Positions 3,501 through 17,358 of a stretch of DNA of 32,992 nucleotides are shown piece after piece. Location of the stretch: IMG/VR virus record IMGVR_UViG_3300005096_000523, positions 1 to 32,992 of that record; one strand, written 5' to 3'. Every line of letters starts with the position of its first letter. Positions within the stretch are counted from its first letter, which is position 1. Under the pieces are notes generated by a model. That model was given only the letters and a program-made list of their open reading frames with translations. It was not told the DNA's origin and searched no databases. A program made the position numbers and the translations under genes. The DNA is from a virus.

Positions 3501-4985
3501 ATGGCAGGTACCAGATCGAAGCAACCGAGGCTGGCGCAGACGAAAGATGTCGTCTCCTACGTCTTCACGCTGTGGGAGGTGGCCCAGGATGACATCCCAC
3601 CATGGGGGAAGCCGGGTCGGGCGGAGAAGTTGCGGGAGTTCGCCCGGGCCGAGCCCATCCTGGCCGGTGCGCTGGCCTCCATGGTGAGCAAGGTCGTCTC
3701 GCTGGACTGGCAGATCACCGGCGGGCGCAACCGGGTGCGCCGCTATCACGAGGTGCTGTCCGAGGCGGAGGACGGCGCCGGCTGGTCGTTCCTGCTGGAT
3801 CGTTGGGCGCAGGACTATCTCAATACCGACCTGGGCGGCGTGGTCGAGCTGGCGCGAGACAGCCGGACGGGCCCGGTGGTGGCGCTGTACAACATCGACT
3901 CGGCGAGGCTAACGCTCACCGGCAATGCGAACGTCCCCCTGCGCTACGTTCCCCACCTGACCCACAAGCCGATCCCGCTCTATCCCGGCGACTTCACCCG
4001 GGCGGTGGACATGCCCAGCCCGGATGAGCGCTATTTCAGCCTGGGGTTCTGCGCCGTCAGCCGAGCACTGAAGGTGGCCAAGGTGCTTCTGGCCCTGTAC
4101 AACTACGAGGAGGAGCAGCTGCGCGATCTGCCGCCTAAGGGGATCGTGACCATCACCGGCATGACCATGCCGGAGGTGCAGGAAGCATTCAAGCTCTACG
4201 AGGCGAGGCGCAAGAGCAAGGAGCAGACCACCTTCAAGGGCGTGCTGTGGCTGGCGGCACAGGCCAACCCAATGCAGCCCATTGACGTGAAGATCACGCC
4301 CTTCGCCACGCTGCCCGATCACTTCGACAAGGAGAAAGCGATCACGCTATATGTCTTCACGCTCTCTCTGGACTTCGGCGTGGACGTGCGGGAGTTCTGG
4401 CCCGCGTCTCAGGCTGGCGCCACCAAGGCCGAGGCGGAGATCCAGCACCAGAAGGCGTTGGGCAAGGGGTTCGGCCGGCTGGTGTCGGGGATCGAGCGGG
4501 CCATCAACTGGGATGTCCTGCCCGACGGGCTGGAATTCGCCTTCGATCAGAAGGACGCGCAGGACGACCTCCTGCGGGTGCAGATTCACGAGAAAGTGAT
4601 CGCCAATGTGCGCAGGCTGTGGGAGCCGAACCCCGTCACCGGCGAGGGGCTGATCGACACGGACGAGGCCCGGCGCATGCTGGTGGAGGCGGAGGCGGTG
4701 CCGGCCTGGCTGGCCACCGGACGGGGGATCACGTTGCACAGCACGGAGGATCTGGAGTCCGAGGTGGCGAAGGCCGCCAATGAGCGCCTGGCCGCCGTCG
4801 TCGAGAAGGCGTTGCTGGATCCGGGCGAGGACCTGGTGGCGATCAATCGCCGGGGCGAGATGATCACCCTCTGGTCGAGTCGGTTCTACAGCTTCCCCCG
4901 GGCAATCCCTGCACCCGGCTGGCCGGGGGCGAAGGAGGGTGAGCCCTCTGCCCCTTTCGGCGGTTTCTCGGCGGAATATCCGTAA
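3501..4985 (+). CDS. Phage portal protein
   Basis: 494-residue protein beginning two bases after the terminase stop. Portal proteins form the dodecameric ring at the capsid vertex through which DNA enters and leaves. The length, the position between terminase and a gp7/F-like minor head protein, and the order of features fit: an N-terminal region with FARAEPILAGALASMVSKVVSLDWQI (repeated in many portals as a helix before the wing), a beta-rich wing with YNIDSARLTLTG and RYVPHLTHKPIPL, a helical stem region (PEVQEAFKLYEARRKSKEQ), and a crown-like helical C-terminus. It most resembles portals of the DUF935/SPP1 kind, but subfamily assignment is uncertain. The C-terminal 30 residues are Gly/Pro-rich and the stop overlaps the possible beginning of the next gene. 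Confidence 0.85.
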   Translation: MAGTRSKQPRLAQTKDVVSYVFTLWEVAQDDIPPWGKPGRAEKLREFARAEPILAGALASMVSKVVSLDWQITGGRNRVRRYHEVLSEAEDGAGWSFLLDRWAQDYLNTDLGGVVELARDSRTGPVVALYNIDSARLTLTGNANVPLRYVPHLTHKPIPLYPGDFTRAVDMPSPDERYFSLGFCAVSRALKVAKVLLALYNYEEEQLRDLPPKGIVTITGMTMPEVQEAFKLYEARRKSKEQTTFKGVLWLAAQANPMQPIDVKITPFATLPDHFDKEKAITLYVFTLSLDFGVDVREFWPASQAGATKAEAEIQHQKALGKGFGRLVSGIERAINWDVLPDGLEFAFDQKDAQDDLLRVQIHEKVIANVRRLWEPNPVTGEGLIDTDEARRMLVEAEAVPAWLATGRGITLHSTEDLESEVAKAANERLAAVVEKALLDPGEDLVAINRRGEMITLWSSRFYSFPRAIPAPGWPGAKEGEPSAPFGGFSAEYP

Positions 4986-5053: not shown

Positions 5054-5815
5054 GTGCTGCGACGCTTCTTCTCCGAGCAGCTTGCCCGGGTTGAGGAGGC
5101 GTTGGAAGCGATCCGACCGGGCCTTCTGGCCGAGCAGGAGGCCCGGCAGGAGGCCGTCGGCACAAAGCGGAGGCTGGAACTGGCGATCGATTGGGCCGCC
5201 GAGGAGCAGGCCCTGGCCGAAGCCCTGGGAGATGCGCTGGATCTCGTCCTTCAGACGGCGCTGGAGATGATGTGGGAGCGGTATGCACGCCTTGGCGTGC
5301 GGCTCTCGTGGGAGGTGTGGAATCGTCTCGCGGCCGAATGGGCGAAGCGCTATCGGTACGATCTGATCCGTGATCTCACCGAAAGCACACGGCAGCAGCT
5401 GGGCCGGGCCATCTCGGACTGGATTGAGCGGGGCGATCCTTTCGATGCCCTGGTTGCGCGGGTACGCCGGGTTCTCCCGGCCAGGCGGCCGCCGGGCACG
5501 GTGCGGGATCGGGCGCAGCTGATCGCGACCACGGAGGTGACTCGGATCTACGCCGATGCCCAGCTCACGGCGATGCAGGCGGCCGGCCTGAAGAGGGCGA
5601 CCTGGCACACGGCGGCCGATGAGCTGGTGTGTCCCACCTGTGCGCCGCTGAACGGCGTCGAGGGGTCAATCGAAGGCGGATTCGTGCACCCCGACAGCGG
5701 GGCGGTCATCAAGCGGCCGCCGGCCCATCCGGGGTGCAGGTGCTGGTGGACGGAGAGCGTGGCGGAGCTGGAGCAGCTTGTGGGCATGACAGGAGGGCAG
5801 GCGGGTGCCGTTTGA
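5054..5815 (+). CDS. Minor head protein, SPP1 gp7 / Mu F-like
   Basis: Head-morphogenesis protein that binds the portal and enters the capsid during assembly. The C-terminal signature is clear: CPTC, then an LNG, then HP and finally HPGCRCWW, the Cys/His pattern of the phage Mu protein F-like family. The N-terminal half is a long charged helix (EEALEAIRPGLLAEQEARQE). GTG 5054 is the first standard start codon in this frame, but the frame is open from 4943 and the upstream residues (PWDGAQRKAERRIEAVL) look like genuine protein, so the true N-terminus probably lies further left. A strong AAGGAGGGT at 4932-4940 has no ATG, GTG or TTG at the right distance. The start is therefore unsure; the identity is not. 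Confidence 0.82.
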   Translation: MLRRFFSEQLARVEEALEAIRPGLLAEQEARQEAVGTKRRLELAIDWAAEEQALAEALGDALDLVLQTALEMMWERYARLGVRLSWEVWNRLAAEWAKRYRYDLIRDLTESTRQQLGRAISDWIERGDPFDALVARVRRVLPARRPPGTVRDRAQLIATTEVTRIYADAQLTAMQAAGLKRATWHTAADELVCPTCAPLNGVEGSIEGGFVHPDSGAVIKRPPAHPGCRCWWTESVAELEQLVGMTGGQAGAV

Positions 5816-6398
5816 CGGGAGAGGCTTTCACATGAGCAAGGCGGTGCTTCGGAAGATCTACCGCCATCACGAGGAGCGGGCCCTCTCGGATGTCGGCGGG
5901 TACGTCCGGGCGAAGGCGGCGAGGTATCCGCCGCAGAGGCCGACGACGACATATCGCCGTACGGGGACTTACGGGCGGTCCATCGCGGTGGGGAAGGTGA
6001 GGCGCACCGGCCGGATCAGCTATGTGCGGGTCGGGACGAAGCTCCGCTACGCCCGCTATGTGGAGGAGGGCGTCGGCCTGTACGGCCCCAGGAGGCGATT
6101 GATCCGGCCGACGCGAGCGAAGGTGCTGGCGTGGCGTGTGAGCGGGCAATTCGTCGGCCGGCTGCGCGGTCGGAGGACGCTGCTCATCGCCATGGGCACG
6201 GCCATTCGCAAGGGACGCGTGAGGCGCTATCGCCGCAGGGATGTGCACCTGGTCTTCGCCCAATACAGCCGGGGCTTCCCGGGCTGGCACACGTTCCGGA
6301 AGGCCTTCAGGGATCCGCAGACCAGGGCGTATTTCGAGCGGCGGATCAGGCGGATGGTGCGGGACGTCGCTCGTGCGATGGGGGAGGTGACGAGATGA
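5805..6398 (+). CDS. Arg-rich neck / head-tail joining-like protein
   Basis: 197 residues if started at GTG 5805 (AGGAGG eight bases upstream), or 188 from ATG 5832, which also has a good ribosome site (GGAGAGG at 5818-5824). The protein is very rich in Arg and Lys. It has a YRRTGTYGRSI stretch and a RYARYVEEG segment, a combination seen in HK97 gp10-like proteins that build the neck between capsid and tail. A basic C-terminal helix (RRIRRMVRDVARAM) follows. Its position just after the gp7-like gene is slightly early for a neck protein; another neck candidate lies at 17334. Assignment as gp10-like is moderate; binding of packaged DNA is another option given the charge. Confidence 0.6.
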   Translation: MPFDGRGFHMSKAVLRKIYRHHEERALSDVGGYVRAKAARYPPQRPTTTYRRTGTYGRSIAVGKVRRTGRISYVRVGTKLRYARYVEEGVGLYGPRRRLIRPTRAKVLAWRVSGQFVGRLRGRRTLLIAMGTAIRKGRVRRYRRRDVHLVFAQYSRGFPGWHTFRKAFRDPQTRAYFERRIRRMVRDVARAMGEVTR

Positions 6399-6707: not shown

Positions 6708-8192
6708 ATGGCCATCTACTACGTGCGCAAGAGCGGCAACGATAACAACGCTGGCACCTCGCCCGACCAGGCCTGGGCGACGTTGGGCAAAGCGGCGTCC
6801 GTCGTTGCTGCAGGGGACACGGTATACGTGGGGGCCGGCGTGTATCGGGAGAAGCTGACGTTGCAGGCCGGCGGATCCGCGGGCAGCCCTATCCGCTGGA
6901 TCGCTGACGTGTCGGGGAAGCACACGGGCGACGCCGGGTTGGTGGTCGTCACAGCGTGGGATGCGGAGTCCGGCGTGTGGCAGGCGCGCAACGCGGCCAT
7001 GGATCTGAATCGGCAGACGTACAACGAGTTCCTCAGGTTCTGCTTCATCGGCGGCGATGATGCCACGTTGTGGGATGACGCGGCCGCGGCCGGGTTCGGC
7101 GAGGGGATCGTTTTCGAGGAGTGCTATTTCCACCTGCCGTACGGACATGTGGTGATCGATGAGACGCCTCCGGCGATCATCCTACGGTTGAACGGCACCG
7201 CGGGGCCGGGCTCGGGCGCATACGGCTTCACGTTCCGACGGTGTCTCGTCTGGGGTGAACTTCTGTTCAGGATCGACGAGAATGCCGTCGCCGACGTGGA
7301 TGCCAGGATCCGGATCGAGGACATCCTGTTCCTGCCCAGGGCCGGGAGCAACCAGCACAACCTGCGCGTGGAGCGGGCGACCGATTCGACCTACGGCGTG
7401 GGCGGGTTCACGGTGAAGGGGTGCACGTTCCTGGCGGGCGAGTACGGCATCTCCGCCCAGTACTGGGATGTCGCCTCGTACGGCATGGACGTGTACAACT
7501 GCCTGTTTGTGGGCAATCAGTACGCGGTCAACAAGTCGCTGTCGTCCGTGACGATCAACCTGGATAACTGCCGCTTCTTCGCTTGCGCTAACGACGGCGG
7601 ATATGCGGGCACGAACGTGAAGGACGGCGTCTCCGGTCTGGTGGGTGGGCTGTTCGACTTCCCGCTGCGCCTGGCTTTGGGCTGGTCTCCGTTCCGACCG
7701 TGGGAGCCAATATGGCTGAAGGGGATCGGTCTCAAGGATCCGGTCATCGACGCCGCCAATGCTGCCAACAGCACGGGCAACGATCTGTACGGGGAGACGC
7801 GGCCCGGGTGGCGCGGGCATGACGTCGGGGCGGTGGAGGCGCGAGCCCGGGCCGAGCGGGAGGGCACGACGGTGCACGGCGACAGCTACGCCGTGAAGCT
7901 GGCCGGGGCAGGATATCACGAGGTACTTCTGCCAATGACGGCCGGCGCTCACACCGTTACGGTGTGGGCGCGCAAAGATGCCAATTACAGTGGCAGTCCG
8001 CCCAAGCTGCAGGTGCTGAACATCCCCGGGCAGGCCGACCAGGAGGCGGCGATGACCGTCGGGGCCGACACCTGGGAGCAGCTATCGGTGGCGATCAATC
8101 CCACGGCGGACGGCTTCGTGCGGGTGCGGATGGTGTCCCAGGATACCGGCGCGAGCGGCGAGTGCTACTTCGACGACCTGGCGGTGACGTGA
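6708..8192 (+). CDS. Right-handed parallel beta-helix protein with C-terminal carbohydrate-binding-like domain
   Basis: 494 residues. The N-terminus YYVRKSGNDNNAGTSP followed by AWATLGKA and AGDTVYVGAGVYRE is the classic opening of DUF1565/pectate-lyase-fold beta-helix proteins. Repeating short strands (FRRCLVWGELL, VKGCTFLAGEYGI, YNCLFVGNQYAV, LDNCRFFACAND) build the coils to about residue 330. The last 110 residues form a separate beta-sandwich (HTVTVWARKD, LSVAINPTADGFVRVRM, CYFDDLAVT) of the kind found in carbohydrate-binding modules. In phages such proteins act as tailspikes or surface fibres that bind or cut polysaccharide. Its place inside the head gene cluster, before the protease/scaffold and capsid genes, is unusual and suggests a head-associated fibre. 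No catalytic residues can be assigned. Confidence 0.72.
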   Translation: MAIYYVRKSGNDNNAGTSPDQAWATLGKAASVVAAGDTVYVGAGVYREKLTLQAGGSAGSPIRWIADVSGKHTGDAGLVVVTAWDAESGVWQARNAAMDLNRQTYNEFLRFCFIGGDDATLWDDAAAAGFGEGIVFEECYFHLPYGHVVIDETPPAIILRLNGTAGPGSGAYGFTFRRCLVWGELLFRIDENAVADVDARIRIEDILFLPRAGSNQHNLRVERATDSTYGVGGFTVKGCTFLAGEYGISAQYWDVASYGMDVYNCLFVGNQYAVNKSLSSVTINLDNCRFFACANDGGYAGTNVKDGVSGLVGGLFDFPLRLALGWSPFRPWEPIWLKGIGLKDPVIDAANAANSTGNDLYGETRPGWRGHDVGAVEARARAEREGTTVHGDSYAVKLAGAGYHEVLLPMTAGAHTVTVWARKDANYSGSPPKLQVLNIPGQADQEAAMTVGADTWEQLSVAINPTADGFVRVRMVSQDTGASGECYFDDLAVT

Positions 8193-8428: not shown

Positions 8429-10237
8429 GTGCCGTATAGCGGTCCGAACGATCGAGATTTGCCGGAGGCGGTCAAGAAGCTGCCCAAGAGGCTGCGAGCG
8501 ATCTGGGTGGCGGCCTTCAACGCCACGCATGAGAAGAAGCCGGATGACGAGAGTTACGCCTTCCGGGTGGCCTGGGCGGCCGTGCGGAGGGCGAGGGAGG
8601 GAAAGAAGATGGCCGAGGAGGAGAAGGCGAAGAAGAAGACCGAAGGAGGCATGCAATTCGGCCCGAGGGCGTACCTGTACGTCCCCGACCCGGACAAGCC
8701 GATCACGTGGAAGATTAGGATCGAGGAGGAGCCGGGCAAGGTGACGGTCGCCCAGCTGGGGCGCGCTGCGGCGGCCATCGGGCCGAAGGGATTCCGAGGC
8801 CGCAAGGCGGACATCCCGAACGACGATAGGCGACGCATCGCGCGCAAGCTGATCAGCCTTTACCGCAAGCATGACGTTCCCGATGAGGACATCCCGGAAT
8901 ATCTGTGGGGGATCGCGGGGATGAGCAAGCCGAAGAAGAAATCGGTCAATTTGCGGACGACGCTGACGGATATCGAGGCTGCGTTGCCCAGGGCGTTCCC
9001 CGGCCTGGACGTGTGGGCCGTTGAGGTGTTCGACGACCATGTGATCGTGAGCGTGCATGAGCCGGGCGGTGGGCCGGCGGGCCGCAGGTACTACAAGGTG
9101 CCCTACGAAGTGACCTACAAGCAGGTCGAGGGCGACCCCAACGAGACGGAGGTGATCGACGGCATCACGTTTGCGCCACGCGAGGAGTGGGTGCAGGTGA
9201 TCCCCACCTTCACGGCGCTAAAGGTCATGACCACGCCCGACGGCCGGGCGCGCTGGTTCGCCATCTCGTCAGGTGGCTTTGAGGACAGGGACAGGGAGGT
9301 GGTGAGCACGGCGTTCCTGGAGTCGGCCGTCAAGGCGGCTGACGAGTCGGGCGATCGCGGCCCGCTTCTGGTGTATCACGTTCCCGGCGCCAGGATCGGC
9401 GGCTGTGACTTCCAGGCCGTGGTCGGCGGATTCCTGCTGGAGTCCGGGCTTTTCGACGATTCCGAGGCGGGGCGTCGGGCGGCCGAGCACTTGCGGGAGC
9501 ACGCCAAGGAGTACGGGGTGTCGATCAAGTTCCTGTATCGGAATCGGACCGAGGACGGGGTATATGAGCCGCCGGGGCTGATCTTGGAGCGGTCGGTGCT
9601 GCCCAGGGATGCGGCGGCTTTCCCCTGGAGCGCGTTTGATCTGAAGGAGACGGAGGCGAGCAAGATGATCGACGAGCGGAAGAAAGAGGAACTGGTCAAG
9701 CTGGTGGGGGAGGACGAGGCCGAGCGGATCTTGGGCGAGCTCGAGGAGAACACCGAGATCCTCAAGCAGGTCGGCGTCCGGTTCAAGGAGGTTCAGGACG
9801 TGGGCCCTGAGGAGTCGGGGGCCGACGGCCAGGAAGAGGAGGAGCCGGAGGGCGGGGCGGCGGAGGTCAAGGAATCCGGTGCGACCGGGGACGTCGACGG
9901 CTACGAGATCGTGCTCTCGCCTGAGAGCCTGCAGGCCATCGCCAAGGAGCTGGCCTGCGATATCTCCGCGGCCGTCGAGGAGAAGACTGCGGCCACCATG
10001 AAGGCTGTGGAGGCCCTGCAGGCGGCCGTGGAGAGCCTGGCGGAGACCGTGGATCGGCTGGCCCGGGCCGAGGATGAGCGCATCGAGGAGAAAGTGCGGG
10101 ATCTGCCGCGGGCCACGTTGCGGCGCATCCGGCGGCCGACGCGGGACAACCCACCGCTGTCCGAGAAGGAGGCCGGTGGGGAGGAGGAAGTCAGCCTGGC
10201 GGAGATCGCCGAGCGATCGCTGGGGCTGAAGGGATGA
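8429..10237 (+). CDS. ChaB-domain / prohead protease / scaffold fusion
   Basis: 602 residues from GTG 8429. Residues 1-65 match the ChaB fold pattern (DLPEAVKKLPKRLRAIWVAAFNA, then FRVAWAAVRR). A low-complexity EK-rich linker leads to a second region with repeated phage-type helices. The middle third (RWFAISSGGFEDRDREVV, then GPLLVYHVPGARIGGCD, then EYGVSIKFLYRN) resembles XkdF-like/prohead protease domains that mature the capsid. The last 200 residues are highly acidic and end in a coiled coil (VEALQAAVESLAETVDRLARAEDE), as in scaffold domains. It lies directly before the capsid gene, the standard protease-scaffold-capsid order. The fusion of ChaB, protease and scaffold in one chain is the notable point. 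The catalytic residues cannot be fixed by eye. Confidence 0.72.
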   Translation: MPYSGPNDRDLPEAVKKLPKRLRAIWVAAFNATHEKKPDDESYAFRVAWAAVRRAREGKKMAEEEKAKKKTEGGMQFGPRAYLYVPDPDKPITWKIRIEEEPGKVTVAQLGRAAAAIGPKGFRGRKADIPNDDRRRIARKLISLYRKHDVPDEDIPEYLWGIAGMSKPKKKSVNLRTTLTDIEAALPRAFPGLDVWAVEVFDDHVIVSVHEPGGGPAGRRYYKVPYEVTYKQVEGDPNETEVIDGITFAPREEWVQVIPTFTALKVMTTPDGRARWFAISSGGFEDRDREVVSTAFLESAVKAADESGDRGPLLVYHVPGARIGGCDFQAVVGGFLLESGLFDDSEAGRRAAEHLREHAKEYGVSIKFLYRNRTEDGVYEPPGLILERSVLPRDAAAFPWSAFDLKETEASKMIDERKKEELVKLVGEDEAERILGELEENTEILKQVGVRFKEVQDVGPEESGADGQEEEEPEGGAAEVKESGATGDVDGYEIVLSPESLQAIAKELACDISAAVEEKTAATMKAVEALQAAVESLAETVDRLARAEDERIEEKVRDLPRATLRRIRRPTRDNPPLSEKEAGGEEEVSLAEIAERSLGLKG

Positions 10238-10331: not shown

Positions 10332-11693
10332 ATGACCGGCGCGTTGTCCGGCAACACGTCGCTATACGGAGCCAAGGAGCTGGCCAGCAAGGAGGCCAAT
10401 CTGACGCTGGCCACCGTGGCCAGCATGTATGGGCCGAATGGGTTGTTCCATATCTGCGGCGACAACGATCTCTTGAGTCTGACCATCGAGCCGGAGCCGT
10501 TCCTGGATTGGCTGGGGTGGAAGCCCAACAACGAGGCCATGCAGCTGATCAAGCTCATCAGCTACATCGGCCCGGAGGGTACGGCCGGGGGCAGCCCGAC
10601 CGGGGGAGCTGCCGCCGCCTGTGATGACCCCAACGGCGTCGAGTTCGGCACCTGCGAGATCCTGCTCCCGGACAAGGGGCGGATCAAGCGGGCCGGGCCG
10701 GTGCGGGACATCACCGAGAACAACCGGCGGGTGTGCGACCAGTACCCGCTGTTCTACAAGGACGGGCAGCGGATCGAGCACGAGATCGTCTGGTCGCTCA
10801 CGCTGGCAGGCGTGGCGCTGCGGCAGGACCTGAAGCGTATGGTGGTGACCGGCAACAGCAGCAACTCGAACGAGTTCGCCGGACTGCAGCAGCTGGTCAA
10901 CACCGGCTACAAGAACGTGCACGACGGGCGGCGCTGTTCGGCGATGGATTCCATCGTCATCGACTGGGGGAGCCAGCCGATGAGCTACCAGCCCAACGGC
11001 CGCCACAGCCTGGTGGACTACCTGATCGCTGTCGTGCGCCGCATCCGCACCCGGGCCATGTGGGCGAACCTGGGCACCATCGCCGTGGGGGACATGGTGC
11101 TCATGATGCCGTCCTTCCTGCGGGATGAGCTGCTGGACGCTTTCACCTGCTGGAGCGTGTGCCCGGGGCAGCAGTACCACGAGGCCAACCTGAACACCTT
11201 CGAAGCCCGTACGTTCCGTAACACGCTGAACGGCGGCATGTACGGCATGGGGCAGATCTTCGTGGACGGCACGCCGGTGCCCATCATCACCTACGACTGG
11301 CAGCCGATCGGGCAGGCGGCGCCGTACTTCATCGGCGACATCTACGTGCTGACCCGGCGCATCGGCAACGTGCCCGTGCTGTGGGGGCAGTACATCGACA
11401 TGACCGACCCGGCTCAGGCGTTCGCCGAGGAAGCCGGGTACATGCACTACCGGGCCGTGGACGGCGGCCGGTTCCTGTCCTACTGGAAGACGGATAACGA
11501 GTGCACGCAGGCGGTGGTCGTCATGCGCCCCAATATCTATCTGTCGGCTCCCTGGGCGCAGGCCCGTATCACCAACGTGGCGGCGGCACGGCCGCTGGCG
11601 CCCATCGTGCCCGATCCGACCAGCGACTACTACGCCGAGGAGTATCTGACGGTGGCCACGGCGCCGGAGGACTACCTGGTGCCGAGCATCTGA
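10332..11693 (+). CDS. Major capsid protein (HK97-fold type)
   Basis: 453 residues from ATG 10332. It sits right after the protease/scaffold fusion and before the connector gene, the expected place for the capsid subunit. The protein has the right size and a mixed composition without enzyme motifs. It includes an N-terminal helical arm (LASKEANLTLATVASMYG), a long helix with NNRRVCDQYPLFY, a region like the HK97 E-loop/P-domain (EHEIVWSLTLAGVALRQDLKRMVVTGNSS), and late A-domain strands (VPVLWGQYIDM, VVVMRPNIYLSAPW). No ribosome site precedes ATG 10332; the strong one is before ATG 10287, in frame but separated by an amber codon. The assignment rests on position, size and fold pattern; sequence similarity to a named capsid is not claimed. 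Confidence 0.78.
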   Translation: MTGALSGNTSLYGAKELASKEANLTLATVASMYGPNGLFHICGDNDLLSLTIEPEPFLDWLGWKPNNEAMQLIKLISYIGPEGTAGGSPTGGAAAACDDPNGVEFGTCEILLPDKGRIKRAGPVRDITENNRRVCDQYPLFYKDGQRIEHEIVWSLTLAGVALRQDLKRMVVTGNSSNSNEFAGLQQLVNTGYKNVHDGRRCSAMDSIVIDWGSQPMSYQPNGRHSLVDYLIAVVRRIRTRAMWANLGTIAVGDMVLMMPSFLRDELLDAFTCWSVCPGQQYHEANLNTFEARTFRNTLNGGMYGMGQIFVDGTPVPIITYDWQPIGQAAPYFIGDIYVLTRRIGNVPVLWGQYIDMTDPAQAFAEEAGYMHYRAVDGGRFLSYWKTDNECTQAVVVMRPNIYLSAPWAQARITNVAAARPLAPIVPDPTSDYYAEEYLTVATAPEDYLVPSI

Positions 11694-11755: not shown

Positions 11756-12565
11756 ATGGAGTATCTAACGGCGACCGAGATCCGGGATGAGTTCGGCGAT
11801 GACGTGGCGGAGCTGACCGACGCTGCCATCGTGCGGCGGCTGGATCGCCTGTCTGCCTACATGGAAGAGGCTCTGGGTCACACCTTCGGCCGGGCGCTGG
11901 TGGCCCGCTCAAGCGATGAGACGCACACGGTGGAGGTGACCGACGATCTGCTGATCATCGGCGGCGATACCTACCCGCTCGACGACTACGCCAATCTGGG
12001 CATCCTGGTGGACGCCGTCAACGGGGTGGGGGAGGCGTATAGCCTGGAGCTGCTTCCCCGGGTGCATCCCGAGACGCCGACGTCGCTGCTGAAGCCGATG
12101 GCCGCCACGGCGTGCGGCGGGAGCTACGAGAGGCGGGCGATTCTGGACATCACGGCCATGTATCTGCGGGTGAACGGGGATGGCAGCACGCACCTGTTCC
12201 TGCCGCTGCCGCTGCGGTCGGTCCTGGCCGTGACGGAGGACGGCGTGGAGCTGGCGAGCGGTGAGTACCGGGCGACACCCGGTGAGAGCTGGATCGTGCG
12301 CCCGATCGAGCGGTGGTCCACCCGCAATCCAGGGAACGTCGTGGTGATCTACGTGCCGGAGGTGTGGGGTCGGGTGCCGGGCGTGGTCAAGGCCGCCCTG
12401 CTGGAAGCGTTCGCCGTGGCATCCAACCTGACGCCGGTGGTGGCCGAGTCCTTCGGCGGCGCGTACAGCTACCGTCGGGCGGAGGCTCGGACGGCCGGAT
12501 GGTCATGGCAGGACCTCCTGGGGAGTTCATCGTTGCGTCCATATGCTGTCAGGTTCCAGCCATGA
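11756..12565 (+). CDS. Head-tail connector / adaptor protein
   Basis: 269 residues. ATG 11756 is chosen because GGAGAGAG lies just before it; upstream in-frame codons run through the hairpin and are unlikely to be translated. The N-terminus YLTATEIRDEFG and the helix AIVRRLDRLSAYMEEALGHTFGR are typical of phage gp6-like connector (head-completion) proteins, which dock under the portal ring. The middle and C-terminal portions add beta strands (RSVLAVTEDGVELASGEYR, VVVIYVPEVWG) and a helix (VVKAALLEAFAVAS), as in longer connector homologues. It is placed right after the capsid gene, as in HK97-type operons. The next genes are unrelated enzymes, so the usual connector-neck-terminator run is interrupted here and resumes at 17334. 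Confidence 0.7.
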   Translation: MEYLTATEIRDEFGDDVAELTDAAIVRRLDRLSAYMEEALGHTFGRALVARSSDETHTVEVTDDLLIIGGDTYPLDDYANLGILVDAVNGVGEAYSLELLPRVHPETPTSLLKPMAATACGGSYERRAILDITAMYLRVNGDGSTHLFLPLPLRSVLAVTEDGVELASGEYRATPGESWIVRPIERWSTRNPGNVVVIYVPEVWGRVPGVVKAALLEAFAVASNLTPVVAESFGGAYSYRRAEARTAGWSWQDLLGSSSLRPYAVRFQP

Positions 12566-12574
12566 GGGGAAGAA

Positions 12575-12910
12575 ATGCCAAAGAGGCCTCAAAGGGTCAA
12601 TGTTCTTGGGATCGAGTACCGGATCGAGTATGTCGACAACCCTGCTGAAGTGGACATCTATAAGCGCCGGTCCCTCTGGGGGCAAGTCGACTTCTGGACG
12701 AGGACCATCAGGGTCTATGCAAACGAACGGCCTGAAGAAGATATCTGGCAGACGATCATCCACGAGGTTCTTCATGCCATCTCAGAAGAGTTGAACCTGG
12801 TCTTGAAGAAAGAAGAGTACCATGACGATCTGGGGATCTTGGCCCTGGCTTTGACCGACACCTTCGTCAGGAACGGCTGGGTGGTTCTTGGCTCTCAGGA
12901 GGATACATGA
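12575..12910 (+). CDS. Small HExxH zinc metalloprotease-like protein
   Basis: 111 residues. The motif HEVLHAI (about residues 64-70) is a clear HExxH zinc site inside an amphipathic helix, preceded by an edge strand TIRVYANER, the layout of minimal ImmA/SprT-like gluzincins. A third zinc ligand cannot be fixed; D or E in the following helix (KKEEYHDDLG) is possible. The reading frame is noticeably lower in GC than its neighbours, which suggests separate acquisition. ATG 12575 follows GAGGGGA, and the gene overlaps the glycosyltransferase start (ATGA at 12907-12910). Possible roles are cleavage of a host regulator or a virion protein; neither can be chosen from sequence. Confidence 0.7.
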   Translation: MPKRPQRVNVLGIEYRIEYVDNPAEVDIYKRRSLWGQVDFWTRTIRVYANERPEEDIWQTIIHEVLHAISEELNLVLKKEEYHDDLGILALALTDTFVRNGWVVLGSQEDT

Positions 12911-15522
12911 AAGTCTGCCTGCTGCCTCGCTTTCAGCCGGGACAGATCGGCGGGGTGGCGCGCCATGTGCTGGCGCTGCAAAGGCACCTGGCCCTGCGGG
13001 GGCATGAGATCATGGCCGACCCGGCCGACGCCGATATCGTGCACGTCCACGCGGCGGAGACGGCGCCGGCCGTGGACGTATACACCAACCACGGCATCCA
13101 CCCGCTGCGGCCGGATATGGAGCCGTGGAAGCGGGAGCAGAACGACGCCATCTTCCGCAATCTGAAGCTGGCCCGGGAGGTGATCGCCGTCTCCCGCTGG
13201 ACGGCCGATCAATGGCGGCATCTGGTGGGTCGGGAGCCCCACATCATCCCGAACGGCATCGACCTGGACGAGTGGCGAGATGTGCCGCGGGGCGTGTGGC
13301 GGGCCCGGCTGGGGGTGGACGGGCGGACGCCCGTCGTGCTGTGGGGCAAGTCCACCGTCAGCGACGTGTGCGATCCCACGCCGGCGCTGGAGCTGGCGCT
13401 GCGACTGCCGCACGTGCTGGTCGTGCTCACGGCGCCGCCCAGGGCGTTCGTGCACCTGCCCCGCAACGTCCGGGCGGTGGGGCCGCAGGCGTTCCCGGCC
13501 ATGCAGATGCTCCTGGCCGACTGCGACGTCTACCTGGCCACCACGCTGGAGAATCACAGCGTGCAGGTCCTGGAGGCCATGGTGCTGGGAAAGCCAGTGC
13601 TGGGATACGACTGGGGCGGCACGACGGAGACCGTCCAGCACGGCGAGAGCGGTCTCCTGGTGCGGCCGGGGGATCTGGATGCCCTGATCGAGGCGTTCCG
13701 GGAGGCGTACGAGCGGCGGGAGGAGCTGGGGGCGGCTAGCCGGGAGATCGTGGCCGACCGCTACCGGTGGGATCGGCTGATCGAGCGGGTGGAGGCCGTG
13801 TACGAGGCGGCGCTGACCGAGAAGCTGGCGGAGGCGGATCCGCACCGTCCGAAGGTCAGCATCGTGATCCCGGTGTACAACAAGGCGCCGTATGTGCGAG
13901 AGGCCGTGGAGTCGGCCCTGCGGCAGCAGGTGGGCTTCCCGTACGAGGTGATCGTCGTGAACGACGGGTCCACCGACGGCAGCGCCGAGATCCTGGAGTG
14001 GCTGGCGGAGGAATATCCGGGGCTGGTGGTGATCCATCAGGAGAACGCCGGCGTGGCGGCCGCTCGCAACCACGGCATTCAACTGGCCATGGGCCGATAC
14101 ATCTGCTGCCTGGACGCCGACGACGTGATCGACCCGCTGTTCCTGGAGCGGACGGCGGCCGCGCTGGATGCCGACCTCGGTTTGGGCATCGCCTATACGG
14201 ACATGCTGGTCTTCGGGGACTGGCCCGGGCGGGGCAGATGGCAGCACGTGGTCCGGGTCGATGAGTATGACTTCGAGCGGCTGAAGCGACGGAACTTCAT
14301 CCCCTGCTGCAACCTGTTTCGTCGGGTGGCGTGGGAGCGGGCCGGGGGATACAAGGACATCAATCCGAGCTGGGAAGACTACGAGCTGTGGCTGAACATG
14401 GGGAAGTTGGGATGGTACGGACGTCGAGTGCCCGGCCCGCTCTTTCGCTACCGGAAGCTGTATCGGGAGGGGAGGGATCATGAGAGCCATGGACAGGAGT
14501 GGCTGCTGCGGGCTATGGTCAATCGCCTGCACCGGGACCTGTACCCGCCGATGGTGAGCGTGGTCATCCCCTGTTACGGCCAGGCGCGCTTCCTGAGGGA
14601 GGCCATCGACTCAGCGCTGGCTCAGACCTTCCCCGACGTCGAAGTGATGGTCGTGGACGACGGGAACGAGGACGAGGAGGCCGAGGCCATCCGGCGGATC
14701 GTGGGTGAATACCCGGCGCAGGATGTGCGGCTGGTCCGACACGAGGAGAACCGGGGCCTGGCCGCGGCGCGCAACACGGGGATCGAGGCGACGCGGGGGA
14801 GGTGGATCGTGCCGCTGGACGCTGATGACGTGATCGAGCCGACGTTCGTGGAGAGGTGCCTGCGGGCGGTGGAGCTGGACCCGCGCCGCTTCGCCTACAC
14901 CGACTCGCTCCTGTGGTGGCCGGATGAGGGAAGGACGCAACTGCTGAGGGCGCATGAGTATGACTTCGACGATCTGCTGCGGCGCATCACCTGGCCGTGC
15001 ACGATCCTGTACGCCAGGGAGGCCTGGCGCAAGGTGGGGGGCTACAGGCCGGAGATGAGCGAGGCCGGCGGTTGGGAGGACTGGGAGTTCGCCATCTCGC
15101 TGGGAGAGGTGGGCGTGTGCGGCGTGCGTGTGCCGGAGCCGCTTTTCCGGTACAGGCAACACTCGAAGACGCAGATGCGGTACGCGGCTGAGGAGCGCAA
15201 GGAGCGATTGCGGGAGACCATGCGACGGCTCCATGCGGCCGTGTACCGGGGGGAGAGGCCGATGGGATGTTGTGGTGGAGGTGTAAGGGCGCAGCCGGTG
15301 GCCGATCCGGCCGTCGTGGCGGCCAATCGGGCGGCGATCGAGGCCGGCGGCAACGGCAAGATGCTGGTGAAGTACGTGGGTGACCATGTCGGGTCCATGC
15401 AGTGGCGGACGCCGAGCGGGCGGGTGTACAGCTTCGGCGCGGCCGATCCGCTGAAGTGGATGCCGCCGGAGGATGCCGAGCACTTTGCGGAGCTGCCGGA
15501 TTTCGTGGTCGTCGGAGAGTGA
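12907..15522 (+). CDS. Triple glycosyltransferase (GT4-GT2-GT2) with C-terminal small virion-type domain
   Basis: 871 residues in four parts. Residues 1 to about 305 are a GT-B, GT4-type transferase with GGVARHVLAL near the N-terminus, the NGIDLDEW motif and the nucleotide-sugar EX7E motif (E215, E223). From about 317 a GT-A, GT2 domain begins with VSIVIPVYNK, NDGSTDGS and the metal-binding DADD at 403-406. From about 550 a second GT2 domain follows with VSVVIPCYGQ, VDDGNEDEE and DADD at 638-641. From 786 a GCCGGG stretch leads to a short domain (YVGDHVGSMQW, SGRVYSFGAAD) of a type I associate with small phage structural proteins. All three active-site motifs look intact. Substrates are not predictable. 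It is expected to add sugars to a polysaccharide or to virion proteins in the cytoplasm. Confidence 0.88.
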   Translation: MKVCLLPRFQPGQIGGVARHVLALQRHLALRGHEIMADPADADIVHVHAAETAPAVDVYTNHGIHPLRPDMEPWKREQNDAIFRNLKLAREVIAVSRWTADQWRHLVGREPHIIPNGIDLDEWRDVPRGVWRARLGVDGRTPVVLWGKSTVSDVCDPTPALELALRLPHVLVVLTAPPRAFVHLPRNVRAVGPQAFPAMQMLLADCDVYLATTLENHSVQVLEAMVLGKPVLGYDWGGTTETVQHGESGLLVRPGDLDALIEAFREAYERREELGAASREIVADRYRWDRLIERVEAVYEAALTEKLAEADPHRPKVSIVIPVYNKAPYVREAVESALRQQVGFPYEVIVVNDGSTDGSAEILEWLAEEYPGLVVIHQENAGVAAARNHGIQLAMGRYICCLDADDVIDPLFLERTAAALDADLGLGIAYTDMLVFGDWPGRGRWQHVVRVDEYDFERLKRRNFIPCCNLFRRVAWERAGGYKDINPSWEDYELWLNMGKLGWYGRRVPGPLFRYRKLYREGRDHESHGQEWLLRAMVNRLHRDLYPPMVSVVIPCYGQARFLREAIDSALAQTFPDVEVMVVDDGNEDEEAEAIRRIVGEYPAQDVRLVRHEENRGLAAARNTGIEATRGRWIVPLDADDVIEPTFVERCLRAVELDPRRFAYTDSLLWWPDEGRTQLLRAHEYDFDDLLRRITWPCTILYAREAWRKVGGYRPEMSEAGGWEDWEFAISLGEVGVCGVRVPEPLFRYRQHSKTQMRYAAEERKERLRETMRRLHAAVYRGERPMGCCGGGVRAQPVADPAVVAANRAAIEAGGNGKMLVKYVGDHVGSMQWRTPSGRVYSFGAADPLKWMPPEDAEHFAELPDFVVVGE

Positions 15523-15525
15523 TCG

Positions 15526-16131
15526 ATGGTGCAAGTACACGAGATGGCGCTGAACCAATGGCATTCGCCGCGCGGCGTGCGAGCGTTACGGCGCTTGTGG
15601 GACGGATCCCGGCGCAAGCGGGAGGCCGAACGCATCGTCGGCGACCTAGTGGCGGCCTGCGAGAGGCATGATCGCATCGTGGACCTGGGCTGTGGATCAG
15701 GGCGCATGATCGCGGCCTTGCCCGGGTTCCGCCGGTATTACGGCTTTGACATCTCGCCGGATCTACTGGACGTGGCGAAGGAGCGCTTCGGTGGGGACAG
15801 GCGCTGCAAGTTCTATCTGCATGACTTCCTGAAAGGGCCCAGAAGCCGCCGGATGAAGCCGGACGTCGTGCTGTGCGTGCACGTGGCGCGGCACTATGAC
15901 GATCCCATCGCTCTGCTGGGCGAGGTCATGCGGCTGTGGCCGGCGCGTTATTACGTGTTCAGCGTGTTGTGCGCGTCTGAGGCACGCGATTTGCTCAACG
16001 GCAGGTGTGTGGCGAAGGCCGACGTGGACGCGTTCGTCGCCGAGGCGGGTGGGGTGTGCAAGCGGATGGTGCAGTCGGACGTGGACGGCATGGAGGTGCA
16101 TTACCTCCTGGTGGAAGCGAGCGAGCGATGA
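15526..16131 (+). CDS. Class I SAM-dependent methyltransferase
   Basis: 201 residues. Motif I VDLGCGSGR (D53 to about G59) binds S-adenosylmethionine, the acidic residue D75 (in YYGFDIS) ends strand 2, and FYLHDFL marks the next acidic position. Later strands are also recognisable (VVLCVHVARHYDD, YYVFSVL, VHYLLVEAS). There is no target-recognition domain, so a DNA methylase of the restriction type is unlikely. Together with the preceding glycosyltransferase, methylation of a glycan or small molecule is the simplest idea; protein methylation cannot be excluded. The ATG comes three bases after the preceding stop, and its end overlaps the next gene by an ATGA. Confidence 0.8.
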   Translation: MVQVHEMALNQWHSPRGVRALRRLWDGSRRKREAERIVGDLVAACERHDRIVDLGCGSGRMIAALPGFRRYYGFDISPDLLDVAKERFGGDRRCKFYLHDFLKGPRSRRMKPDVVLCVHVARHYDDPIALLGEVMRLWPARYYVFSVLCASEARDLLNGRCVAKADVDAFVAEAGGVCKRMVQSDVDGMEVHYLLVEASER

Positions 16132-17033
16132 GGTTGCTTTTCATCGGCATCGACTGCCTGGGTACACACAGGTTTCAGACCTCCCTCATGCCCCGTCTGC
16201 CCATCGACGCAGGCGACGTGGTGTGGGGTGAGTGCTATGCGCCTCTGCCGAGGACGGGGCCAAGCTGGACCAGCATCTTAACCGGATTGCCGGCGGAGGA
16301 GCATGGCGTGATCAGCCTGTTGGGAACGGCCCGGGATGGAAGCAAGACGTTTCGGGATCTGGTGGGCAAGTACATCTTCGAGGGCCTTCCGGGCAGCGTG
16401 GGGGTGTTCAACTTTCCCACGACCTATCCGCCCCGGTGTCGCCCGGGGGATTGGATGATCAGCGGATATCCCTTCGATCCGGCCTGCTGCCCGGCCGATC
16501 TGCTGAACGGCACCGATTATATCGGCGATTACGCTCACCTGGTTGTGGGCCTGCGGGAGGCGGAGGGCAGATCCTACTTCTGGCCGGACGAGTACGACAA
16601 CGATACGGCGTTTGCGATCATGCAGCTGGTGGAGCGGGTGCACCTGCGGGCGCTGCGTCGCCTGCCCGGGGTGGAACACCTGTTCGTCTGCACGACCTAC
16701 TACGACCGGGTGGCCCATCAGTGCCACAAGCTGGGGCCCGCGGAGCAGAACGGCCCGCTGGATGATGCGGCGCAGTTCGTAGCCGACTGGGTGGGCCAGG
16801 TGCTCGATCTGTTCCCCGCCGACACGGTGGTCATGGTGAGCGATCACGGCTGGTCCCAGCAGGAGAACTGGCACAGCCATGCCGGGTTCTGGTGCATGTG
16901 GGGCGGGGGGGTGATCGAGAGGGGGCAGGTCGACATAAAGAATCACGAGCTGCGGGCGCGGGTGGAGGCGGCGCTGGCGGCGACCGATCCACAAGTTGAG
17001 GGGCGATTGCGTGCGCTGGGGTATGTGGATTGA
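16128..17033 (+). CDS. Alkaline phosphatase superfamily protein (type I phosphodiesterase/nucleotide pyrophosphatase-like)
   Basis: 301 residues, ATG overlapping the methyltransferase stop (ATGA). The superfamily metal and nucleophile motifs are in order: GID (D9), a nucleophile region GPSWTSILTG (T48 or S49) followed by LPAEEHGV, a central YYDRVAHQCH, VSDHGW and a late histidine in SHAGFW. These match the layout of phosphodiesterases, pyrophosphatases and related phospho- or sulfo-hydrolases of the fold. There is no signal peptide, so it should act inside the cell, on nucleotide sugars, lipids or the product of the neighbouring transferase. Such enzymes are rarely found in a phage structural operon. 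The exact substrate is unknown. Confidence 0.8.
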   Translation: MRLLFIGIDCLGTHRFQTSLMPRLPIDAGDVVWGECYAPLPRTGPSWTSILTGLPAEEHGVISLLGTARDGSKTFRDLVGKYIFEGLPGSVGVFNFPTTYPPRCRPGDWMISGYPFDPACCPADLLNGTDYIGDYAHLVVGLREAEGRSYFWPDEYDNDTAFAIMQLVERVHLRALRRLPGVEHLFVCTTYYDRVAHQCHKLGPAEQNGPLDDAAQFVADWVGQVLDLFPADTVVMVSDHGWSQQENWHSHAGFWCMWGGGVIERGQVDIKNHELRARVEAALAATDPQVEGRLRALGYVD

Positions 17034-17358
17034 ATCCGGGCTGGCCGCCTGGCGGCTGGCGCACATGTTGGTGCATGAGGACGGGCCCTGGGCGATCTTT
17101 GCCCGGCTGCGATATCGGGTGGGACTGCACTCCGTGGCGGTCAGGGGAGAGGACGGCCGACTTCGGGTGAGCCGGGTGGCGTCCAACACGCTGGCCGAGG
17201 GGCTGACCTGCGTGTGGTGCGTGAGCGTGTGGACGGCGATCGTATTGGGGATGAGGGATTGGAGATGGGTGCGGTGGGCGCGGCAGGTGCTGGCCGTGAG
17301 CGCCGGGGCGATCATCGTGCATGAGGTGGTGGGGTGGCTGCGCTCGCACGGCGGGTGA
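17011..17358 (+). CDS. Small membrane protein, DUF1360-like
   Basis: About 115 residues starting at GTG 17011 (GAGGGG at 16998-17003), or from ATG 17023. An opening AAWRLAHMLVHEDGPWAIFARLR and a later LTCVWCVSVWTAIV follow the pattern of DUF1360 proteins, which are small membrane proteins often found in phages and Gram-positive bacteria. There are two likely membrane helices (about CVWCVSVWTAIVLG and VLAVSAGAIIVHEVVG). A CVWC pair could bind metal or form a disulfide. The function of the family is not known. It overlaps the phosphodiesterase upstream and the neck gene downstream, so it is at the right edge of the enzyme block. Confidence 0.6.
   Translation: MRWGMWIESGLAAWRLAHMLVHEDGPWAIFARLRYRVGLHSVAVRGEDGRLRVSRVASNTLAEGLTCVWCVSVWTAIVLGMRDWRWVRWARQVLAVSAGAIIVHEVVGWLRSHGG

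Follow-up and report, generated by a model that had tools for sequence, protein, structure and literature searches.

A candidate head-linked glycosylation module with a nested in-frame start and variable tailoring enzymes in an uncultured phage lineage

Introduction

Why would a phage encode enzymes of sugar transfer and modification among its head genes? The question is raised by the virus record IMGVR_UViG_3300005096_000523 of IMG/VR, whose complete sequence of 32,992 bases is the window analyzed here. In it, a connector gene is followed by four consecutive open reading frames (ORFs) on the plus strand, located at 12575-12910 (111 aa), 12907-15522 (871 aa), 15526-16131 (201 aa) and 16128-17033 (301 aa), which are coupled by overlaps or by a 3-nt gap. 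A first-pass annotation, made from the letters alone, had placed these ORFs correctly and had described them as a metalloprotease, a triple glycosyltransferase (GT), an S-adenosylmethionine (SAM) methyltransferase and an alkaline-phosphatase-fold hydrolase, inserted as one block into the structural operon and serving a modified glycan on the virion or on the host surface.

Comparison with related loci led us to propose a head-linked glycosylation module whose tailoring enzymes can be swapped, a reading to which we assign a probability of roughly 0.6. Its core would consist of the gene of the major capsid protein (MCP), the GT gene and a DUF1360 gene (17023-17358) that the first-pass annotation did not mention. 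Also missing from that annotation was an ORF nested in the GT gene (15262-15522), whose product we infer to be a small head-associated protein.

Results

The capsid gene lies at 10332-11693 on the plus strand. Its product has zero PHROG, Pfam or PDB sequence matches, and tblastn searches in phages and in plasmids found nothing. An AlphaFold2 model built from 41 sequences (pLDDT 75.9, pTM 0.75) nevertheless resembles HK97-fold capsid proteins (Foldseek E 4.5e-11), and a comparison by VIA aligned the predicted structure with the capsid protein of cyanophage A-1(L) over 303 residues (Z 18.9, rmsd 4.9). Given this predicted fold and a position after TerL-, head- and protease-like genes, we take the gene to encode the MCP. 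Scans with the MCP returned 37 viral loci and 5 loci in 4 genome assemblies, a scan with a GT alignment added more, and 44 MCP records, window included, remained after removal of duplicates. The census has 48 entries, of which L074 continues L012, L075 continues L003, and L063 and L073 are without an MCP in the DNA examined, leaving 44. Near-duplicates (L017, L019, L026, L027 and L068) and a non-relative (L060) were omitted, as were otherwise L044-L072, which are the same contigs, except L046, L052, L053, L063, L067 and L069.

The phage-encoded GT at 12907-15522 (plus strand) contains a GT4 and two GT2 domains, all over the Pfam cut-off (PF00535, 1.1e-68), in agreement with the triple glycosyltransferase of the first-pass annotation. 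They are followed by a small C-terminal domain that we call the CCG domain. Downstream of the MCP, this domain is found in 37 of the 44 records, fused to GT2 in 35 and encoded by a separate gene in 2 (L021 and L031). Five of the other seven records are cut short, L004, L023 and L024 within the GT gene and L036 and L043 at the MCP; the remaining two are weighed in the Discussion. DUF1360 follows in 36 of the 37 CCG records, the sole miss (L014) being due to a contig end, and in L003 and L012 it sits in the continuation of the contig. In the window, the start of the DUF1360 gene (17023-17358, plus strand; PF07098 7.4e-5, 23.1 bits vs a cut-off of 21) overlaps the end of the last gene of the block.

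In the 33 measurable records, GT2 ORFs are concentrated between MCP and DUF1360, with 35 in 88.4 kb vs 7 in the 558.9 kb elsewhere, and 31 of these records have one in this interval (L034 was omitted, as its 97-aa DUF1360 falls below the ORF limit). Furthermore, distances between MCPs correlate with distances between GTs (Mantel r 0.58, p 0.0005; 35 records, median identities 44% and 40%), and the corresponding r values are 0.55 for MCP-CCG and 0.33 for GT-CCG. Synteny from MCP to DUF1360, the concentration of GT2 there and the correlation of MCP and GT distances together argue for inheritance of the GT along with the capsid and against its recent insertion. A second GT2 gene was also seen 4-8 kb upstream of the MCP in L007, L018, L020, L022 and L037, and two were seen there in L009.

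The boundary between the GT2 and CCG domains looks like the start of a gene. In every fused gene complete at this point, the CCG domain begins with a methionine 0-2 residues ahead of a cysteine motif, which is CCG in most genes, CNGCG in L038 and CxxCG in L067, L069 and L073. The start codon is an ATG with an upstream Shine-Dalgarno (SD)-like purine run in 37 of 37 genes tested (35 from MCP records plus L063 and L073), 7 of which come from loci that were fetched by a GT motif and confirmed by GT-CCG tblastn, and not picked for their start site. The nested in-frame ORF of the window (15262-15522, plus strand) encodes 86 aa beginning MGCCG, and its SD-like site (GGGGGGAGAGG, 15248-15258, plus strand) has a predicted energy of -9.4 kcal/mol, which ranks first among 18 in-frame internal ATGs. 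Over the 37 genes, anti-SD binding energy at the nested ATG averages -8.7 kcal/mol and is -6.5 at its weakest, compared with a mean of -2.5 kcal/mol at 491 further internal ATGs that lie in frame in these genes, 8.6% of which reach -6.5. The nested site ranks first in 28 genes (2.8 expected) and first or second in 36. The Mann-Whitney p of 2e-22 for this difference, like the Fisher p given next, does not count independent events, since the tested genes share descent. When each gene was recoded synonymously 1,000 times, 36 of the 37 had a nested SD that beat their median recoding (Fisher p 2e-9).

The start signal could still be a by-product, with the M(x)CCG motif serving as a structural linker, the purine run arising from codon use and the neighboring enzymes being unrelated cargo. 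The common peptide GERP itself favors purines, which makes the synonymous test weak gene by gene. However, the peptide encoded by the purine run varies (GERP, KEVR, GGDY, GRFS, KGVY, IGDV, DRRNE) while the SD is kept, 36 of 37 genes lie above the median recoding, and the free-standing copies of the CCG domain share the same start. We consider a by-product improbable.

These free-standing copies, in L021 and L031, lie between MCP and DUF1360 with no GT fused to them and begin at the equivalent ATG, with SD values of -7.8 in L021, -10.7 in L031 and -4.4 for a second L031 copy. In L021, the longer listed frame starts at a TTG inside the SD region. The two L031 copies are tandem genes at 3610-4187 of that record. 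A search for PF00535 through the whole L021 (62 kb) and L031 (45 kb) records found none, other GT families not having been searched, and the same search returned 2, 6 and 2 matches in three fused-type records. That free-standing copies occur in records without a PF00535 match speaks for a function of the small protein independent of the GT. Given an internal ATG with a strong SD and the existence of CCG copies without recognizable GT2, the GT gene probably makes two products, the full-length protein and its C-terminal part, with calculated masses of 98.7 and 9.0 kDa in the window. We consider the small protein most likely to be head-associated, as a decoration or completion protein.

The main rival to this interpretation is that the short product is a mere subunit of the GT, the full-length and C-terminal chains forming a hetero-oligomeric holoenzyme whose acceptor may be anything. 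Nested endolysins are described as behaving in this way, with stoichiometries of 1:3 or 1:5 (PMC9430671), and the head role of the CCG domain is itself deduced from its position and its GT-free copies. What makes a pure GT holoenzyme unlikely in our judgment is that in L021 and L031 the small protein stands alone beside the MCP, with no PF00535 match in records that are, however, possible fragments.

Structure prediction gave the CCG domain five strands and a helix, modeled with good confidence over about residues 30-86 (pLDDT 76.6 for the whole model, pTM 0.54). The domain had no weighty PHROG or PDB match and no Pfam match over the cut-off, except for helix-hairpin-helix extensions in some relatives, and the L021 copy found no relative in phages. 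Its predicted fold reached at best Z 5.5 in the PDB (a GINS subunit, not significant) and E 0.016 in BFVD (a phage protein). A structural protein of Pseudomonas phage KPP25 (E 0.53) was considered as a relative and dropped, as profile comparison gave no support; this candidate was taken by its length (149 aa) to be ORF015, two genes past the major structural protein of that phage.

Paired cysteines recur in the three core parts, as CWSVC in the MCP, CCG or CxxCG in the small protein and CxxC in DUF1360. The CWSVC motif occurs in most relatives, with C273 and C277 invariant in 41 MCPs, and the DUF1360 CxxC is invariant in 12 of 12 aligned sequences. Near the N-terminus, a GCCG is also found in most MCPs; the window MCP reads GPNG at this place.

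The other three genes of the block are variable cargo. The gene at 12575-12910 (plus strand), called a metalloprotease in the first-pass annotation, has an HExxH motif and a SprT-like match below the cut-off (E 0.0032, 17.8 bits vs 25.6), and its clear match is to phrog_1233 (8e-15), a PHROG of unknown function, so that the name was not borne out. Among 42 relative loci compared, it was detected only in L039. The gene at 15526-16131 (plus strand) encodes a class I SAM methyltransferase (PF13489 2.8e-12), in agreement with the earlier assignment. Related methyltransferases occur in L003, L039 and L040 only and are 42-52% identical, although the GTs of L039 and L040 are 85% identical to that of the window. 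A reading of the block as a defence locus was set aside: the only matches of the five block genes in PADLOC were of methyltransferase type (mad2 2.1e-12, MTase_II 0.00088).

The gene at 16128-17033 (plus strand) encodes a type I phosphodiesterase of the alkaline-phosphatase superfamily, in keeping with the hydrolase fold first proposed (PF01663 6.1e-10, 39.7 bits vs a cut-off of 23). It is listed from an upstream GTG at 16005, yet its alignment with relatives begins at the ATG at 16128. Homologues were found only in L040 (84-85% identical) and on the L003/L075 contig (57%), the latter directly before DUF1360, and none was found in L039. They emerged from gene neighborhoods; strict peptide patterns in viral contigs and tblastn in phages had returned no relatives. 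Residues D9, T43, D193, H197, D239, H240 and H249 are invariant in the three sequences (window, L040 and L075) and are candidates for the Thr nucleophile and the Asp/His metal ligands.

Among 36 complete MCP-DUF1360 intervals, counted with L003/L075 and L012/L074 joined by contig, 12 hold extra genes of at least 100 aa and 2 hold a free-standing CCG gene only. A sugar-type enzyme or a methyltransferase was recognized in at least 11 of the 12 loaded intervals, L029 being unassigned. Their cargo comprises a GT4 and a sulfotransferase (L010), a methyltransferase-sulfotransferase fusion (L016), a PIG-L deacetylase and a hexapeptide transferase (L012/L074), a GT4, a methyltransferase, a GT2 and a phosphodiesterase (L003/L075), a GT4 with a lectin-like protein and a beta-helix protein (L030), a methyltransferase and a GT2 (L032), a UDP-glucose/GDP-mannose dehydrogenase (L038), and methyltransferases (L039, L040 and L046). 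A first Pfam scan of 20 hand-chosen cargo genes left 5 without a match. A second covered 43 interval ORFs of at least 100 aa; connectors, CCG copies, ORFs flagged as GT2, some that overlapped or duplicated others, and the L039 methyltransferase frame were outside this set. It recognized 5 to 7 methyltransferases, 3 GT4, 3 GT2 and 2 phosphodiesterases, one each of PIG-L, hexapeptide and UDP-sugar dehydrogenase proteins, a sulfotransferase, one GIY-YIG nuclease and structural-type proteins. After the MCP of L012, a protein of about 1,000 aa (11783-14803) has many short NxLGAxA-type repeats, and no sign of a GT appears for 7 kb.

These comparisons bear on the proposed four-gene insertion, which does not hold as a single event, as the GT is core and the other genes vary among relatives. 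The word inserted suits the HExxH, methyltransferase and phosphodiesterase genes, and does not suit the GT. The first-pass annotation had argued that genes found alone at random sites in relatives would be unrelated acquisitions. This is not the pattern of the GT, given its density between MCP and DUF1360, and it is partly that of the other three. That these three come and go, and that the L039 and L040 slots also hold small unassigned genes, would fit enzymes that are unrelated cargo beside a linker; the sugar-type enzymes or methyltransferases of the loaded intervals speak against it.

If the block does act on a glycan, it could alter the host surface late in infection or lysogeny, blocking superinfection or freeing progeny. 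At its left end, the window encodes an integrase (phrog_1, 2.5e-50), and the PHROG matches of the GT2 domains include GtrB-like families, phage GT2 families of this kind being among those of O-antigen conversion. In Gtr clusters, which carry out such conversion, the GT GtrB is membrane-anchored and stands beside the GtrA flippase and GtrC. The GT of the window is like these in its GT2 domains and GtrB-like matches. Unlike GtrB, it has no membrane segment by a simple hydropathy scan (top 19-residue hydropathy 1.32, zero windows over 1.6), nor do the methyltransferase and the phosphodiesterase, and it has a small phage protein as its fusion partner and adjoins the MCP instead of sitting in a lysogeny region. 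Neither GtrA nor GtrC was found by Pfam among the five block genes, the whole record not having been scanned, and no flippase was recognized among these or the scanned interval genes. A host-surface role therefore appears quite unlikely, and the first-pass annotation, although supported on a modified glycan by the sugar-type enzymes in the slots of relatives, is not supported in offering the host surface as an equal option. The DUF1360 protein, with hydropathy peaks of 1.7-2.1 in the 6 sequences tested, is probably membrane-bound; a search in phages with its relative from L009 found none.

The module may extend beyond the present MCP family, since several GT-CCG fusions were found with DUF1360 and without an MCP match. 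L073, from the GT scan, has a GT-CxxCG gene and DUF1360 and no MCP match in the DNA examined. A DNA pattern scan for SD, ATG and CCG returned at least 120 stretches, and among the matches listed 10 of 123 sites were GT2-CCG fusions, four of them in new records. Of these four, L097, L103 and L109 have DUF1360 nearby, and immediately upstream L097 encodes a divergent MCP (E 6.1e-11). No MCP match was found in the DNA examined for L103, L109 and L136, and L136 also has no DUF1360. The SD of these four was not used as evidence, because the pattern itself required it. By eye, a stretch of L073 (3540-7074) holds several methyltransferase-like genes and a second gene (5294-6061) resembling the small beta domain, all ahead of the GT-CxxCG gene. 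The pattern scan also returned small phage proteins that start MGCCG or MACCG and have no CCG-family beta domain (L088, L107, L139, L166 and others), several with a C-terminal CxxC pair resembling a zinc ribbon.

The hosts are probably Chloroflexota bacteria, consistent with the first-pass annotation, a link that rests on contig binning. All five loci matched in the genome collection, in four metagenome-assembled genomes, are named Anaerolineae, Caldilineae or Ardenticatenia, which are Chloroflexota classes, and 400 sampled Chloroflexota genomes gave two MCP matches, one in the genome already known and one weak (E 1.9e-7).

Around the block, the connector or head-tail adaptor gene (11756-12565, plus strand) matched phrog_442 (7.4e-7), as first annotated, and uses the same ATG start in relatives. 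The neck label at 17334 found no support, with no match in PHROGs or NCBIfam and only EFP_N in Pfam (21.9 bits vs a cut-off of 23). Promoter and terminator patterns were at chance level only. The protease-like gene 5' of the MCP (8429-10237) starts with a ChaB domain (PF06150 4.9e-7). A beta-helix, tail-fiber-like protein (phrog_9851 8.5e-8; Pel9A-like in Pfam at 24.1 bits, slightly below the cut-off of 25.2) is encoded before the protease gene in the window (6708-8192) and just past the MCP in L003 (11655-13103), a difference in placement which indicates that this gene moves around the capsid gene.

Discussion

The proposed module would work as follows. Around a core of MCP, GT gene and DUF1360, one gene would yield both a GT carrying a head-associated domain and that domain alone. 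The shared CCG domain would let the fused GT dock on the small protein or on the head as it grows, and the docked enzyme would glycosylate capsid subunits in place. The three catalytic domains of the window GT could account for up to three transfer steps, after which the methyltransferase and the phosphodiesterase would modify the glycan. We advance a more elaborate form only tentatively. In it, the GT would be built into or onto the head through the protein nested in its own gene, and in-place capsid glycosylation would be dosed by the two starts. The slots flanking the GT would form a wardrobe in which tailoring enzymes (methyl, sulfo, deacetyl, acyl, phospho) can be exchanged, so that the head glycan would differ from phage to phage, and the cysteines of MCP, small protein and DUF1360 may link these parts by disulfides or metal.

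Sequence shows the synteny, the fusion, the internal start signal, the free-standing copies, the sugar-enzyme cargo and the capsid fold, and from these we infer the two products, the head location, the capsid as acceptor, the glycan chemistry and the role of DUF1360. Several points weigh against the proposed module. Two records are real exceptions to the core, L002 having no GT or CCG across 7.5 kb after the MCP and L041 a GT whose reading frame is disrupted after 199 aa. Taken singly, only 9 of 37 genes reach significance in the synonymous test, the genes share ancestry (in the first 30, median identity is 32% over the C-terminal part that was aligned), and L067, L069 and L073 did not fit the first cysteine motif and were included on inspection under a wider one. 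Since no significant family or fold match was obtained for the CCG domain, its head role rests on position and GT-free copies. Finally, tailoring enzymes are not general, since no further gene reaching 100 aa is present in 22 of the 36 complete intervals.

The arrangement recalls that of phage lambda, in which protease C and scaffold Nu3 share a C-terminus, Nu3 being made from an internal start. In both cases, an enzyme of the head module would share its C-terminus with a head-assembly protein. Protease and scaffold lie upstream of the capsid gene in lambda, whereas the GT lies downstream of it here; the likeness is one of arrangement. In-frame nested phage genes, in which the short product corresponds to the C-terminal portion of the long one, are also known from Ms6 lysA and two-polypeptide endolysins (PMC3111421, PMC9430671). 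The present gene shows an internal start signal of this kind in its sequence. The endolysin genes encode lysis enzymes whose products are proven, whereas here a GT and a probable head protein are predicted. Virion glycosylation is known from mycobacteriophages Che8 (gp110), Corndog (gp38) and Myrna, whose phage-encoded GTs glycosylate capsid and tail tube proteins (PMC12363180). The present GT is likewise phage-encoded; unlike those systems as described there, it carries a fused small phage protein and comes with a nested start, DUF1360 and a tailoring slot. Phage capsid glycosylation and nested in-frame phage genes are thus both known, and their combination was not found described. A literature search by title and abstract, covering few subscription journals, returned neither a GT gene with a nested head-protein gene nor the order MCP-GT-DUF1360.

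Under our reading, one gene should give two proteins, and the glycan coat should vary between phages. Gene calling with one start per frame would miss the nested gene. If the reading is true, a head-protein gene nested in a GT gene would be a genetic device tying an enzyme to its likely substrate, and capsid glycosylation would be an inherited, near-universal trait of this uncultured phage lineage.

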